Shown: piece after piece, positions 32,862-39,902 of the stretch | Position numbering within the stretch: position 1 is the first letter of the stretch | Layout: every line of letters starts with the position of its first letter | NCBI GenBank assembly: GCA_913057195.1 | Contig: CAJXNL010000012.1 | Location: 1-64,000 of the forward strand | Reading direction: 5' to 3' | DNA: 64,000 nt | Origin: an uncultured Wenzhouxiangella sp. | GTDB lineage: Bacteria > Pseudomonadota > Gammaproteobacteria > Xanthomonadales > Wenzhouxiangellaceae | Translations under genes and position numbers: made by a program | Notes under the pieces: generated by a model | Told to the model about the DNA's origin: nothing | The model's input: the letters and a program-made list of their open reading frames with translations, nothing else | Databases searched by the model: none

Positions 32862-33653
32862 TCACGGTCGAGGCCGAATGGAGATGTCCCCGTGGCTGAG
32901 CCATGTCGTGTCGCCATCGCACGCCACCCCCAGCTGGCCTTGGTTATTGATACCGACAGCCATGCCCTCAATTGAGGGTTGGTCTTGTTCATGGACAACG
33001 ATGGGGTGGCCTTTGAGGGCATCGAGCGCGTCCCAGCGAGCGAGGAAGGGGGTCAACCCCGTGGCTTCAAAAGCGCTCAGGTCATCATCAATCTGATCTA
33101 TGAGGGCCAGCGCCAGCGTGTTGCGGTCAGTGACATCGACCAAGTCGGCCCAGGGTTGGTCGGGCGGGGTGTGCCGTGTTGAGCTTAATTGCGCTTGTAA
33201 AGCCAGATTCAGGCCCACACCGAGAATCAACCCAGTCGCAGCGCCGGGCTTGATGTTGACATCAATTAAACACCCACCCACTTTGGCCAAGCCTGAATCT
33301 TGTCGAATCACAATGTCATTGGGCCACTTCACCCAGACCGGATCGGGCACGGCTTGGGCGACTGCCAGCGCCAACACCAGGCTGAACGCGGGCAGCGTTT
33401 CTGGCGGATGGTGGGTCCAAAAGGGCATCGACAGATAAAGCCCCCCGCCGGGCGGCGACAGCCAAGACCGCCCGCGTCGACCCCGACCTTGAGTTTGTTC
33501 ATTGGCCAACCAGATGTTGCCAGGCTCATTGTTCGCCCATTGGGCTTTGATCGCATCGTTGGTTGAGGGCAGTGATGGCGAGACCACCACGGGCGGCAGG
33601 TGGCCTCGGCGGCGTTGGTTCAGCCAGTCGGCATCCAACGCTGACGGATTCAT
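32862..33653 (-). CDS. birA: Biotin-[acetyl-CoA-carboxylase] ligase (BirA-type)
   Basis: A 263-residue biotin protein ligase. It shows the nucleotide loop GRGRRGRSW, KWPNDIVI and the later VGGCLIDV and LGVGLNLA blocks. The N-terminus begins directly with the catalytic domain and lacks the helix-turn-helix of E. coli BirA, so it should biotinylate but not repress bio genes. The start at 33653 overlaps the plsY stop by ATGA; the track start lies eight codons upstream. Placed in the same operon as lipid-synthesis genes, it serves acetyl-CoA carboxylase. Confidence 0.88.
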   Translation of the reverse strand: MNPSALDADWLNQRRRGHLPPVVVSPSLPSTNDAIKAQWANNEPGNIWLANEQTQGRGRRGRSWLSPPGGGLYLSMPFWTHHPPETLPAFSLVLALAVAQAVPDPVWVKWPNDIVIRQDSGLAKVGGCLIDVNIKPGAATGLILGVGLNLALQAQLSSTRHTPPDQPWADLVDVTDRNTLALALIDQIDDDLSAFEATGLTPFLARWDALDALKGHPIVVHEQDQPSIEGMAVGINNQGQLGVACDGDTTWLSHGDISIRPRP

Positions 33654-34324
33654 GACGATCGGTCGCGACGGCGCCACAGTTTATGCGTGTCGAAGCGGTT
33701 TTCGTTTCCTTTAATAAGGCGCTGAATGTTGCCTCGGTGCGTGAGGACAATGATGGTGGCCACCGCAATTGCAAAGCTCATCAAGGCCGGCGGCACAGGG
33801 TCTGGCCCCAGCCACCAGACCGCCGGAATCAGCACCAACCCGGCCAAAATGGTCGCCAAGCCGACATAGCCGGTGATCAGCAGTGTGACCAGCCACACCA
33901 GAAACATCGGTCCAATGGAGGCCGGTGCCAACACCGCCACCGCGCCCACCGCGGTCCCGGCGCCTTTGCCGCCGCGAAAGCCGAAATACACCGGCCAGAT
34001 GTGACCCACAATGGCCGCCAAGCCCCCGACGGCGCCTAAGGCCAGCCACGTGGCACGGGTGGCCGTGACGGCCTCAAGGGCGGCAGGGACCGCACCGGCG
34101 GCGAGTGCGCCTTTGCCAATGTCAATCACGACCACGGCCAATGCAAAGCGCCAGCCTCGAGTCCGAAGCGCATTGGTGCCGCCGGCATTGCCCGAGCCCA
34201 CAGCGCGGATGTCGATCGATTGCAACCGGCCCAGGACCAACGACCCCGACACTGAGCCCAACAGGTAGCCCAGCACGGCCACCGTCAGCCCATGCGGCCA
34301 CAGGTTGACCCACACACCGGTCAA
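33650..34324 (-). CDS. plsY: Acyl-phosphate:glycerol-3-phosphate acyltransferase
   Basis: A 224-residue inner-membrane enzyme that makes lysophosphatidic acid from acyl-phosphate and glycerol-3-phosphate. Conserved motifs are GSGNAGGTNALR, GHIWPVYFGFRGGKGAGT and HRGNIQRLIKGNENRF, with about five to six helices between. The start is a TTG overlapping the stop of the upstream kinase fusion gene (TTGA), which implies tight translational coupling; a GTG three codons later is the alternative. Because PlsY uses acyl-phosphate, its coupling to a FakA/FakB-like acyl-phosphate-producing protein is meaningful. It overlaps birA by 4 bases. Confidence 0.94.
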   Translation of the reverse strand: MTGVWVNLWPHGLTVAVLGYLLGSVSGSLVLGRLQSIDIRAVGSGNAGGTNALRTRGWRFALAVVVIDIGKGALAAGAVPAALEAVTATRATWLALGAVGGLAAIVGHIWPVYFGFRGGKGAGTAVGAVAVLAPASIGPMFLVWLVTLLITGYVGLATILAGLVLIPAVWWLGPDPVPPALMSFAIAVATIIVLTHRGNIQRLIKGNENRFDTHKLWRRRDRSS

Positions 34325-36135
34325 TGGCGGTCCTCAGGGGGTTGCCAGCGCTGCAGCCCGACCACCAGGCACCCTGGCCCGGCGTGCGCGCCCACGGCGG
34401 GGCTGGCCTCTTCGATCCAGCAGGCATCGACGTTCGGGTGGCCCCGCAGCAATAAATCCCGAAGGGCCTTTGCATCGGCTTTGGCGTTGTTGTGGCTGAT
34501 GATGACGCGGTAGGTGTGGTCTTGGACCATCTTTTTAAGCAAGAACGCCGCATAGCGTTTGACGGCCCGCTCGCCTGAGCGCACCACGGAACTGGGCTTG
34601 AGCACCCCGTCTTTGGTGGTGAGGATCAGATGCAGGTTCAATCGTTTGGAGAGCGTATCCATCCAAGGCTTGACCCGTCCCCCGCGCACGCCCCAGCTGA
34701 GATCGCGCACCAAAGCAAAGGTTTGGATGCTTTGTCTGAGTTCTTTGAGCTTCGAGACGATGGCCATCACCTCCCAGCCTTTGGCCGCGGCTTCGGCTGC
34801 GTATAGAACCATCAAAGCCTGTCCGCAGGCCGCTGAGGCGGTGTCAAAGATTTCGATGTGTTCGGGATCGTGGCGCGCTGCGGTTTGGGCCGCTTGCAAG
34901 GTGCCGCTGAGTTGACCCGACACCGGCATCGCCAGAACGTGGAGCCCATGCGAGGTCAGCAGCTCGAACTGTCGGGTGAAGGCACTGGGGGGCGGTTGAG
35001 ATGTTTGCGGTTGAAGTGTGGAGTGAGCCACCTGGTCATAGAACTCTGCTGGGGTGATGGTGAGTTTGTCTAAAAACTCCTCATCGCCGAAATTTAGACG
35101 CAGCGCCACGACATGGATGCCCAACCGATCAATCTCGTCAGTGGGCAGGTCCGCGGCCGAGTCGGTGACCACGGCGACCTGACCTTGCTGGTTCATCAAG
35201 GCATGCTGTTTGGTCATGTCGTCGGCTTTTTGTTGGCGAAGCTCGCCAAAGTTTGCGCAGATCCGAAACACCTCCCCAGGCGAGTCCGTGTGGATGTGCA
35301 CCCGAGCCCGTTCAACGCTGCCGGCCACCACCAGCGAGCTGGCATCCAAGGCTTCGAGCTCTCCTCTGAGGGCAGGGATGTCCATGCCCTCGCCATCAAT
35401 TAAGCACTCGGTGCAAAACCGGTGAATGTCGGGGGCTGTGCCATGTGCCCCAGTTGCGGCGGGCGAAGGCTCAGAGGACGCGAACTTAGGCAGGTGGGGC
35501 ACTTTGCCCGAGCGGGTGAATTGCCACACCCCCTCCAAAAAGTCCACAAAGCCCTGGCCACCAGCATCCACCACGCCGGCGTCTTTGAGCGCGGCCAATT
35601 TCTTGGGCGTGTCTGCCAGCGATTTCTTGGCCCGCTTTAAACCACGCTCCATGAGTGTTCGGATGTCCTCGATGCCCTCATCTGCGGCCTGGCTTAATGC
35701 TTTGGCAAAGTCCTCCAACACCGTCGGTAGGGTGCCGGGCACCGGTTCGGTCATCGCCCCCCACGCAGATTCGGCCGCTGCGGTCGAGACGTGCGCCAGG
35801 CGCTTGGCATCAAGGACTTGATACTCCCGGCTGGACTCGCTCAGCCCTTGAAAATACTGGGCCATGATGGCGCCGGAATTGCCGCGCGCGCCATCCAGTG
35901 CGGCGTTGGCCATCTGATCGAGCAAGGCAGGCAGGCTCTTGGGCACATCGGTTAACGCGGCGCGGATCTCGGACAGCGTAAACGCCAAATTGGTGCCGGT
36001 GTCGCCATCGGGAACCGGGAAGACGTTGATTTTGTTGATGTGATCGCGGTGCTTAAGCACGTTGGCAATGCCCGCCAGCACGGCGTTTCTCAGCCGCGGG
36101 GCGTCAATGTGAGTGATGGGATTATGTTGGGGCAT
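34321..36135 (-). CDS. Fused fatty-acid kinase: DAK2/FakA-like domain plus DegV/FakB-like acyl-binding domain
   Basis: A 604-residue cytoplasmic protein. Residues 1-200 form a DhaL/DAK2 kinase domain with the Mg-ATP motif NVFPVPDGDTGTNL and GARGNSG. Residues about 200-310 match the FakA linker/middle domain (CTECLIDGEGMD, VHIHTDSPGEVF). From about residue 315 a complete DegV/FakB lipid-binding domain follows (VTDSAADLP, TSQPPPSAF, SGQLSGTL, RGGRVKPWMD). In Firmicutes, separate FakA and FakB phosphorylate exogenous fatty acids to acyl-phosphate. Here both parts are one chain, and the gene overlaps plsY, whose enzyme consumes acyl-phosphate. The ATG at 36135 follows a TTG; the Shine-Dalgarno is weak. 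Confidence 0.85.
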   Translation of the reverse strand: MPQHNPITHIDAPRLRNAVLAGIANVLKHRDHINKINVFPVPDGDTGTNLAFTLSEIRAALTDVPKSLPALLDQMANAALDGARGNSGAIMAQYFQGLSESSREYQVLDAKRLAHVSTAAAESAWGAMTEPVPGTLPTVLEDFAKALSQAADEGIEDIRTLMERGLKRAKKSLADTPKKLAALKDAGVVDAGGQGFVDFLEGVWQFTRSGKVPHLPKFASSEPSPAATGAHGTAPDIHRFCTECLIDGEGMDIPALRGELEALDASSLVVAGSVERARVHIHTDSPGEVFRICANFGELRQQKADDMTKQHALMNQQGQVAVVTDSAADLPTDEIDRLGIHVVALRLNFGDEEFLDKLTITPAEFYDQVAHSTLQPQTSQPPPSAFTRQFELLTSHGLHVLAMPVSGQLSGTLQAAQTAARHDPEHIEIFDTASAACGQALMVLYAAEAAAKGWEVMAIVSKLKELRQSIQTFALVRDLSWGVRGGRVKPWMDTLSKRLNLHLILTTKDGVLKPSSVVRSGERAVKRYAAFLLKKMVQDHTYRVIISHNNAKADAKALRDLLLRGHPNVDACWIEEASPAVGAHAGPGCLVVGLQRWQPPEDRH

Positions 36136-36153
36136 CAAATTCGGCTTTTTGTG

Positions 36154-36393
36154 TCAGTGATGCTCGCGCCCGGACTGGTCGGCCGCTTGCAGTGTCTGCT
36201 CGTTGAACGGCCAGTCCCAAACGCGTCCAGTGGTGGTCTCGACAAGCACAGGAATGCGCGTGCCAAAGCGCTGAATGAGGTCCAAGTCTGTATCAATGTT
36301 GACGGTATCATAGCGCCAGCCGCCCGCCTTGAGAAGGTTTTGGGCCACATCGCACAGGGGGCAGTCGTGGCGGGTGTAGAGAATCAAAGCCAT
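36154..36393 (-). CDS. Glutaredoxin family protein (DUF836-like)
   Basis: A 79-residue small thiol-redox protein. The active-site motif CPLC (YTRHDCPLCDVAQ) lies at the N-terminus and the cis-proline signature appears as TRIPVLV. The size and sequence match the short glutaredoxin-like/DUF836 group rather than classical GrxA or GrxC. It is the first gene of the minus-strand run, 18 bases before the kinase fusion gene. Its partner is unknown. Confidence 0.83.
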   Translation of the reverse strand: MALILYTRHDCPLCDVAQNLLKAGGWRYDTVNIDTDLDLIQRFGTRIPVLVETTTGRVWDWPFNEQTLQAADQSGREHH

Positions 36394-36576: not shown

Positions 36577-36656
36577 ATGCTCAAGCTTTCGGTGTGAATG
36601 GACCACGTTCAATGGTGCATTCACGTTTTGTTGTGTTCCATTTTCTGGAGTCTGAA

Positions 36657-39600
36657 ATGTTAAAACTACGCAGTTTCCTGGTGATGCTCGCGCTTTCTGC
36701 GGTCCTCGCCAGTCAGGCCATGGCGCAAACCACGTCCTCAAACCTTCGCGGTCAGGTCGTGGGTGCAGACGGGTCGCCCGTTGCAGATGCGTCCGTTGAG
36801 ATTCTTCACGTCCCCTCCAGCACCGTGGCTCGGACTTCATCGGGTGCCTCGGGTCGCTTTTTCCAAAGCGGTTTGCGCGTGGGTGGACCTTATCAGTTGA
36901 CTGTCTCAGGCAACGGGTTTGAGACCACCGTGTTTGAAGGCTTGTTCCTTGAGCCTGGCAGCCAGGATCCGGTTCGGATTGAACTGGCTGAGATGGGTGC
37001 GGTCACAGACCGGCTCATGGTCACCGGCACACGGATGGTTGAAGCCTCTGAGCTCAACAGCGGCGTGGGCTCGGTCTACAGCGAGCAAGACATCAGAAAC
37101 TCCACCGGTGGCGATCGCGACCTGATCAACACCATTTTGCAAGATCCCCTGGCCACCTCAGATGGCGTGGGCAATTTGTCGGTGGCGGGCGTGAACCCCC
37201 GCTTCAACGGCCTGTCGATCGATGGCTCGCTGCAGCAAGACGACTTTGGCTTGGGCTCCAACACCTACGCCACAGAACGCTCACCCATTAACATCGACGC
37301 GGTGGAATCGGTCTCGTTGGTCGCTTCTGACTACTCTGTGCAAGCCTCAGGCTTCACCGGCGGCTTGGTGAACGTGGTGACCCGCTCGGGCACGAACGAC
37401 TTTGAAGGCAACTTCTACTACGCTTTCAAAAATGACTCCATGTTTGGCGATGAGTATGCCGATCGCACTTTTGATCCTGGTGAAGTCGACGAGAAAGAAT
37501 ACGGCTTCGTTGCATCAGGTCCCGTGATCAAAGACAAGCTCTTTTTCTTGCTGTCTTATGACGAATTTGAGAGTGGTCGTCCCTATGACTACTCCAACGC
37601 TGACCGATTCGACGGTCGTCAAGCTGGCATCTTTGATGCGCTGAGAACGGTGGTCCAAGACACCTACGGCTACGATCCGTTGAGCCGTCCGCTGTCGGGC
37701 AACATCCCGATCACCTCGGAGCGTGTCTTGGCCAAGGTGGATTGGAACATTAACGACAGCCACCGGTTGTCAGCGACCTATCAGACCACTGAAGAGACCG
37801 ACACCAGTGACGACTCTGATGAGTTTGAGTCGGCGTGGTACGACACACCGGTCGATCTTGAGTCTTACACGTTGCAGCTGTTTTCAGATTGGACGCCCAA
37901 TCTGTCGACCACTTTCCGCTACAACTACAAAGAGTTTGTCCGTGGCCAAATCTGCCGCGGCGGTCCAGAAGTGGGCCAGCTGGCGTTTGAACTGACAGCC
38001 GACAGCGTGGCGGGCAGCCCGCTGGACGGTTTGATCGGTGATGAGCCGCTTGATGTCATCGCAGGCTGTGACGTGTTCCGTCATGCCAACGAGTTCAACG
38101 ATGACCGTTCGCAGTTTTTCGCATCCGCCGACTACTTTGCTGGCGATCATGTGATCACTGTTGGTGCCGAGTACGAAGAGTACAACCTGTTTAACTTGTT
38201 TGTTCCGTTCTCACGAGGTGCATTCACCTTTGAGAGCTACGATCAGATTGTTAACCGCGCACCGGCTGACGTGTTCTATGTCAACGTGCCCTCAAACAAC
38301 GCTCGCGACGGCGCGGCCGCTTGGGGCTATGACAAAACCACGTTCTTTGTGTCGGATGAGTGGTCTGTCAACGCTGACCTCCAGCTGAACCTTGGCGTCC
38401 GATATGAGCGCTTCGGGCAAGACGATCGGCCGACCTTCAGCCAAGAGCGTTTTGACACCTATGGCGTGAACACCGCCAACAACTTAGACGGCAAAGACTT
38501 GATCATGCCGCGTTTGGGCTTCTTGTTCACCGGGTGGGATCGCACCACCGTCAGCGGTGGCGTGGGTCTGTTCGCCGGCGGCAGCCCGCAGGTGTGGGTC
38601 TCTAATGCCTTTCAGGCGCCGACCAATTCGGCGTTCGTGCCGGGCGTGACCGACGCAGACATCTTCAATGTGCCACAAGCCAACCGCGACATTGTGGCGG
38701 CCGGGGGTGCAGGTCTGCCGATCGACTACATCGATAAGGACTTCAACATCCCATCGGATTGGAAAGCCTCTTTGCGCTACGAGCGGGCGTTTGATCTGCC
38801 GGGCATTGGTGAGAACTTCCGTTTCACGGCTCAGTATCTCTACACCCGGACCAACGATGGCTTCTTGTGGCGCAACTTGGCGCAGCTCCAGCGCGCAGAA
38901 AGCCTGCCCGTTGGGGAAGCCCCCGATGGTCGTCCCATTTATGCTGACTTGGAGGCGCTGGGCCTTCGTAACCTGACGCAGTTGACCAACTTCGGCAACG
39001 GCGACAGCCACGTGTTCACGTTGGGCTTGGGCAAAGTCTTTGAAAACGGCTTTGACTTTAACCTGGCCTACGCCTATCAAGACACCACCATCGTCTCTGA
39101 GGGCACCTCGTCGCGCGGGATTTCAAGCTGGCGCAGTCAGTATGACCAAGACCGCAACTTCCCAAGCCCACGCATCTCACCTTTCCAGGTCGACCATGCG
39201 TTCAAGATCAACTTGGGCTACGAGCGGCGCTTCTTTGGTGACCTGTTGACGCGTGTCGATGCCTTTGGCCAAATCACCACGGGCGATACCTATGGCTTGA
39301 CGTTCAACATCGACGATGACAACCACTTGTTTGGTCGTGCCGGCGATGGCGAAGACCCCTATGACAACAACCCGCTCTACATCCCGGATCCAGCAGGTGA
39401 TGCAGCGGTGGTGTATGCCTCTGGCTTCGACCAGGCTGGGTTCTTTGCTTTCGTCGACGACAAGAACTTGCCCACCGGCGAGATCATGGATCCGTACTCA
39501 CGGACGTCATCGAAGTGGAACAACATCTGGGATCTTCGGATTCAGCAAGAATTGCCGGGCATCCCTGGGTTGGATCGGTTTGCCAAAGACAACAAGTTCA

Positions 39601-39902
39601 GCGTGGTGTTGGACATCGACAACTTCCTGAACATGTTGAACAAAGACTGGGGCAACTATTACAACGGCCCTCGGTTTGGTCAAGCGGCATTCGTTCGCGC
39701 GGATCTGGTCTCAGCGGCCGATGTTGATGCCAATGGTGTTGACGGGGCAACAGCGCTGACCGACGATGCCGCACGGACCACGTGTCAAGCGGCCAGCGAT
39801 TGCGTTTACCGTTTCAACAGCTTCCGGGATCGTGGCACCAACTTCTTGAGTGCCTCACGGTCAATCTGGCAAGCACGTGTGACGCTTCGCTACGACTTCT
39901 AA
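36657..39902 (+). CDS. Oar-like TonB-dependent receptor with carboxypeptidase-regulatory-like N-terminal domain
   Basis: A 1081-residue outer-membrane transporter. After a signal peptide (ending AMAQ) comes a carboxypeptidase-regulatory-like beta-sandwich (LRGQVVGADGSPVADASVEI ... YQLTVSGNGFE). A TonB plug and a large barrel follow. GFTGGLVNVVTRSGTNDFEG is the diagnostic Oar/OmpA-like plug end, and RVTLRYDF closes the barrel. Oar proteins are tied to export or uptake of peptides and proteins. The start at 36657 has TGGAG six bases upstream; the track began 21 codons earlier. A strong terminator follows. Confidence 0.92.
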   Translation: MLKLRSFLVMLALSAVLASQAMAQTTSSNLRGQVVGADGSPVADASVEILHVPSSTVARTSSGASGRFFQSGLRVGGPYQLTVSGNGFETTVFEGLFLEPGSQDPVRIELAEMGAVTDRLMVTGTRMVEASELNSGVGSVYSEQDIRNSTGGDRDLINTILQDPLATSDGVGNLSVAGVNPRFNGLSIDGSLQQDDFGLGSNTYATERSPINIDAVESVSLVASDYSVQASGFTGGLVNVVTRSGTNDFEGNFYYAFKNDSMFGDEYADRTFDPGEVDEKEYGFVASGPVIKDKLFFLLSYDEFESGRPYDYSNADRFDGRQAGIFDALRTVVQDTYGYDPLSRPLSGNIPITSERVLAKVDWNINDSHRLSATYQTTEETDTSDDSDEFESAWYDTPVDLESYTLQLFSDWTPNLSTTFRYNYKEFVRGQICRGGPEVGQLAFELTADSVAGSPLDGLIGDEPLDVIAGCDVFRHANEFNDDRSQFFASADYFAGDHVITVGAEYEEYNLFNLFVPFSRGAFTFESYDQIVNRAPADVFYVNVPSNNARDGAAAWGYDKTTFFVSDEWSVNADLQLNLGVRYERFGQDDRPTFSQERFDTYGVNTANNLDGKDLIMPRLGFLFTGWDRTTVSGGVGLFAGGSPQVWVSNAFQAPTNSAFVPGVTDADIFNVPQANRDIVAAGGAGLPIDYIDKDFNIPSDWKASLRYERAFDLPGIGENFRFTAQYLYTRTNDGFLWRNLAQLQRAESLPVGEAPDGRPIYADLEALGLRNLTQLTNFGNGDSHVFTLGLGKVFENGFDFNLAYAYQDTTIVSEGTSSRGISSWRSQYDQDRNFPSPRISPFQVDHAFKINLGYERRFFGDLLTRVDAFGQITTGDTYGLTFNIDDDNHLFGRAGDGEDPYDNNPLYIPDPAGDAAVVYASGFDQAGFFAFVDDKNLPTGEIMDPYSRTSSKWNNIWDLRIQQELPGIPGLDRFAKDNKFSVVLDIDNFLNMLNKDWGNYYNGPRFGQAAFVRADLVSAADVDANGVDGATALTDDAARTTCQAASDCVYRFNSFRDRGTNFLSASRSIWQARVTLRYDF

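Follow-up and report, generated by a model that had tools for sequence, protein, structure and literature searches.

Organization of the locus

The window, the whole stretch of 64,000 nucleotides analysed here from an uncultured Wenzhouxiangella sp., carries on its minus strand a gene whose product joins a Dak2 kinase domain, a FakA middle domain and a DegV/FakB domain in one polypeptide (Table 1). Its open reading frame begins with an ATG, or with a TTG if it is extended to 34321-36138, and it is followed by plsY.

Table 1. Predicted features of the fusion gene and its operon
Feature	Position	Strand	Remarks
Glutaredoxin-like (DUF836) gene	36154..36393	-	directly upstream of the fusion gene; also upstream in most Wenzhouxiangella loci
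Predicted fused fatty-acid kinase gene (FakA_N + FakA_L/M + FakB)	34321..36135	-	604 aa, ATG start
Dak2 (FakA_N) ATP-binding kinase domain	35527..36018	-	residues 40-203; N37 lies just before the domain
Linker between kinase and middle domains	35449..35481	-	residues 219-229; low confidence in the predicted model
FakA middle (L/M) domain	35200..35421	-	residues 239-312; zinc/catalytic triad C241, H280, H282
DegV/FakB acyl-binding domain (predicted)	34357..35178	-	residues 320-593; T378, S410, R487, H584 conserved
TTGA shared by the fusion stop and the predicted plsY start	34321..34324	-	
plsY, acyl-phosphate:glycerol-3-phosphate acyltransferase	33650..34324	-	224 aa
birA-like biotin protein ligase gene	32862..33653	-	follows plsY in the operon, with its ATG overlapping the stop codon of plsY

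The initial annotation had described a DAK2 kinase and linker fused to a full DegV/FakB domain, and a Pfam and NCBIfam domain search bears out this order. The Pfam matches are Dak2 (PF02734, 116.9 bits), FakA-like_M (PF21645, 61 bits) and DegV (PF02645, 206.6 bits across 274 residues), and the NCBIfam DegV model TIGR00762 scores 237.8 bits against a cut-off of 99.7. The motifs quoted in that annotation (GDTGTNL, GARGNSG, TDSAADLP, TSQPPPSAF and SGQLSGTL) all occur in the translation. The FakA C-terminal domain (FakA_C, PF13684) reaches 19.2 bits in the fusion, below its 23-bit cut-off, with the match confined to the DegV region; a complete DegV domain occupies its place, as had been proposed. 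The models TIGR03599 (YloV) and NF038248 (FakA) also score below their cut-offs, matching the N-terminal part only or spilling into the DegV region. The DegV part aligns almost without gaps to Staphylococcus aureus FakB1, and each of the 19 proteins in a diverse alignment has the Dak2, FakA middle and DegV domains. Elsewhere in the same genome, we found no other DegV match and no second FakA-like match.

The PlsY assignment is based on the equivalog model TIGR00023 (160.2 bits, cut-off 137.2 bits) and on a full-length match to PF02660 (positions 1-164 of 164). The TTGA at which the fusion stop was said to overlap the plsY start is present, but the start itself is soft: TTG is the longest option and another candidate, GTG, follows after 9 nt, which makes the precise overlap a predicted one here. 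Many relatives have a fusion/plsY overlap of the ATGA or ATGnTTGA type. Because plsY overlaps the fusion gene, the birA-like gene overlaps plsY and the glutaredoxin-like gene is separated from the fusion gene by a gap of 18 nt, the locus reads as a tight operon. Promoter and terminator scans returned no more than chance. Divergent from the operon, the plus strand of the window encodes at 36594-39902 a large outer-membrane beta-barrel protein whose N-terminal domain is carboxypeptidase-regulatory-like.

Catalytic residues and predicted structure

Catalysis by S. aureus FakA requires N32, D38 and D40 (Mg-ATP) and, in the zinc-bearing middle domain, C240, H282 and H284 (PMC9136124, PMC11617999). 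By alignment, these residues correspond to N37, D43 and D45 and to C241, H280 and H282 of the fusion. Across 68 homologues, N37 and D43 are conserved in 68/68 and D45 in 67/68, the remaining sequence having an unknown residue at that position, while the C/H/H triad is invariant (68/68). The initial annotation had left the DAK2 active site to a full alignment, in which its residues prove to be present and nearly invariant. The DegV part is similarly constrained: S410, R487 and H584 are invariant or found in 67/68 homologues, and T378 in 67/68. We take these four to be the carboxylate-site residues of FakB. The column aligned with Arg205 of S. aureus FakB1, a residue of the docking surface and membrane wedge, falls short of strict conservation; because the alignment is loose there, we give this no weight.

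The AlphaFold model of the fusion (pLDDT 91.8, pTM 0.83) matches S. aureus FakA_N (TM 0.97, rmsd 1.2), FakB1 structures (TM 0.83-0.88) and Thermus thermophilus DegV (TM 0.92). The best structural match for the whole chain is Streptococcus suis FakA from the FakA-FakB2 complex, though with the domains arranged differently (rmsd 24.9). A disordered linker separates the kinase and middle domains of the model, whereas a short joint, residues 316-320, connects the middle domain to FakB. In the S. aureus system, FakA_N and FakA_L are enough for catalysis with FakB (PMC9136124), and FakA_C, a FakB-like fold without a tunnel, has the sole role of docking FakB (PMC9136124, PMC11617999). Consequently, FakA_NL joined to FakB is plausible as a one-chain enzyme.

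Distribution and gene neighbours

The fusion is found in 51 of the 61 genomes searched as relatives (this one included), in many other gammaproteobacteria, in Neomarinimicrobiota and in one Caldithrix; Firmicutes copies form a distant clade. Where a genome of the order has both genes, plsY follows the fusion gene on the same strand in 92 of 96 cases, and the same succession holds at 14/14 Neomarinimicrobiota and Caldithrix loci with room downstream. The adjacency, which might have been a peculiarity of this genome, is therefore conserved throughout the order and recurs in a second phylum. At the other loci with room, plsY comes directly after the fusion in only 32 of 62; the remaining 30, in many other gammaproteobacteria, have the fusion away from plsY, so that the coupling is not obligatory. 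Woeseiaceae and similar groups have the fusion behind gspA/gspB-like genes instead. Neighbours of the fusion loci were clustered from genes predicted with a codon-usage gene caller on this high-GC DNA.

Several loci depart from the intact arrangement. At locus L168 (G154:C9:47038-48734), the fusion lies in two frames, split between profile positions 419 and 444, beside an intact plsY; the cause may be a frameshift, an error in sequencing or a gene that is truly split. At locus L065 (4001-5806), in a draft genome, an otherwise full-length fusion gene has a single internal stop codon. Genome G037 (locus L172, 3077-4018) and other genomes of family f2 encode similar stand-alone DegV proteins of about 330 aa and have neither the fusion nor PlsY. 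The one such protein that was read is without the TSQPPP and SGxxSGT motifs, so a role as FakB is unlikely.

Co-occurrence with PlsY and loss of PlsX

We counted the relevant genes in 259 genomes of the order that are at least 90% complete. The fusion is present in 99, PlsY in 100 and PlsX in 70. Fusion and PlsY occur together in 96 genomes, with 3 having the fusion only, 4 PlsY only and 156 neither, counts that ignore phylogeny; the overall Fisher test (p = 7.7e-62) ignores it as well and is descriptive only. In the three fusion-only cases (G006, G031 and G151), the gene is cut by a contig end. Among the four with PlsY only, a PlsX match is present in G093, G155 and G054, and two of these, G093 and G155, retain PlsX and have no fusion gene beside plsY; the fourth, G042, is a fragmented draft.

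Of the 96 genomes with both fusion and PlsY, 57 have no PlsX, this genome among them. Across the 189 genomes without PlsX, 57 have both genes, 1 the fusion only, 1 PlsY only and 130 neither, an agreement of 187/189. In this genome, a search for PlsX gave no PF02504 match. Its DUF177-rpmF-fabH-fabD-fabG-acpP operon is intact and has no plsX between rpmF and fabH; as these two genes are contiguous, an assembly gap is ruled out as the cause. The gene is likewise missing from this position in G021, G041, G039, G237, G200 and G032; it is kept there in G026 and lies before fabH in G007. PlsB is present in 39 of the 40 genomes tested, including this one. With the de novo synthesis genes and PlsB retained, the PlsX step alone is missing.

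For the 34 sampled members of the order, the tree of the fusion requires PlsX to have changed state at least four times; outside the order, PlsX is usually present too (29/32 genomes). The genome itself (1.78 Mb, 98.9% complete) is roughly half as large as those of most congeners. Its loss of plsX is shared with G021 and not with its nearest relative, G007.

Two further observations concern PlsX. In 26 genomes, mostly of family f9 (e.g. G044, locus L174, 2957-6147), PlsX occurs with neither PlsY nor the fusion; in G044 it sits at the usual rpmF-plsX-fabH place, and we know of no obvious use for PlsX without PlsY. In the two-contig genome G054, plsX is in three pieces with a stop (G054:C1:2288920-2289889, locus L171); this genome has a high-scoring PlsY and no PlsB match, and the broken plsX is possibly an assembly error.

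Proposed function and alternatives

We propose, with a probability of roughly 80%, that the fusion is a single-chain fatty-acid kinase that supplies acyl-phosphate to PlsY and stands in for PlsX in many lineages, a reading built on sequence comparison, the predicted fold and gene content. The FakB (DegV) domain would take a free fatty acid, whether recycled or exogenous, from the membrane, and the Dak2 and zinc-bearing middle domains would phosphorylate its carboxylate with ATP. The acyl-phosphate would then pass to PlsY, the product of the next, overlapping gene, which would acylate glycerol-3-phosphate to lysophosphatidate. PlsB would serve the acyl chains from de novo synthesis. With FakB itself in the position of its Firmicute dock, docking would become covalent, and a FakB fixed to the kinase would make FakA_C redundant.

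Because plsX is lost in much of the order and in this genome, the fusion is the only recognisable source of acyl-phosphate for PlsY there, and it is probably PlsY's only substrate source wherever PlsX is gone. To our knowledge, a PlsY without PlsX has no other source of acyl-phosphate. It is also likely, if less so than the kinase assignment, that the fusion has displaced PlsX in a large part of the order, leaving PlsY to work only on acyl-phosphate from free fatty acids and PlsB alone to handle de novo acyl-ACP.

The co-occurrence could instead reflect the joint deletion of two neighbours in PlsB-reliant lineages, with no functional dependence between them: where the fusion and plsY are adjacent, as in 92 of the 96 genomes, a single deletion removes both. 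We consider this unlikely. Genus g18 (G047 and G257) retains both genes even though they are unlinked there, genera g28 and g29 are variable for both, and PlsY without the fusion is found almost only in the genomes named above that have a PlsX match.

Slightly less probable still, the protein may be a fatty-acid kinase whose acyl-phosphate serves mainly to make acyl-ACP via PlsX or to control the pool of free fatty acids; its linkage to plsY would then be incidental operon structure. The many gammaproteobacteria in which the fusion lies away from plsY, beside gspA/gspB-like genes, would fit this idea, as would the presence of PlsX in most genomes outside the order. However, the 57 genomes with fusion and PlsY but no PlsX have no acyl-ACP route through PlsX available to them, a fusion without PlsY hardly ever occurs within the order, and the adjacency recurs in another phylum. 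Finally, it is very improbable that the protein is a Dak2-family kinase acting on some other small carbonyl or carboxylate compound, its DegV domain being regulatory: Dak2 domains do also occur in dihydroxyacetone kinases, to which the fusion has weak NCBIfam matches (PRK14479, dak_ATP and DhaL), but the FakA-specific middle domain is present with an invariant C/H/H triad, the DegV domain has kept both the FakB fold and the residues T378, S410, R487 and H584, and the chain as a whole is structurally closest to a FakA, that of S. suis. A role of the fusion locus as a defence system was also considered and rejected, there being no match.

The single-chain kinase feeding PlsY thus remains the preferred reading. 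Reviews and recent papers assign FakAB to Gram-positives and acyl-CoA or acyl-ACP synthetases to Gram-negatives (PMC10146087, PMC12594616). A single chain in Gram-negatives, tied to plsY and surrounded by PlsX loss, is new with respect to this literature; our search of the open-licence literature, which extended to Fak in Gram-negatives and gammaproteobacteria, found no description of the fusion. A conserved single-chain Fak that is coupled to plsY in gammaproteobacteria and Neomarinimicrobiota, often without PlsX, would widen the view of Fak. If PlsX has indeed been displaced, these bacteria would have a split phospholipid-initiation system and would be a clear exception to the activation of fatty acids as thioesters in Gram-negatives. 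The fusion makes it testable why some bacteria retain PlsY without PlsX. As a covalent FakA_NL-FakB construct, it could also help to decide between the two competing models of how the lipid in FakB reaches the kinase site (PMC11617999).

Comparison with known systems

The protein shares with Firmicute FakA and FakB (S. aureus, Enterococcus faecalis and S. suis) the kinase domain, the Cys-His-His zinc site of the middle domain, the FakB fold with its conserved residues, and the expected product, an acyl-phosphate used by PlsY. It differs in being one polypeptide instead of two, in having only one FakB, in the replacement of the tunnel-less docking domain by FakB itself, and in its Gram-negative host, which often has no PlsX. 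With no FakA_C, the protein would be FakA-like in its working and not a canonical FakA.

Closer in architecture are the Dak2-FakA_M-DegV fusions of Listeria innocua, Enterococcus raffinosus and Acetoanaerobium, which have the same domain order and 30-32% identity over nearly the whole length; they nevertheless form a separate, strongly supported clade, and the literature searched contains no account of them either. That the fusion might already be listed in databases was foreseen, and Firmicute copies are indeed carried there as 'DegV family protein', the annotation of L. innocua WP_207577344.1. The L. innocua gene, on a large plasmid (locus L175, 4013-6516), directly abuts a DUF1295 gene and not plsY.

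The proposed route has PlsY as the acceptor enzyme and acyl-phosphate as the intermediate in common with the PlsX/PlsY pathway, although plsX is missing here from the rpmF-fabH operon. The two would differ in the origin of that intermediate: acyl-ACP in the PlsX/PlsY pathway, and free fatty acid and ATP in the route proposed here.
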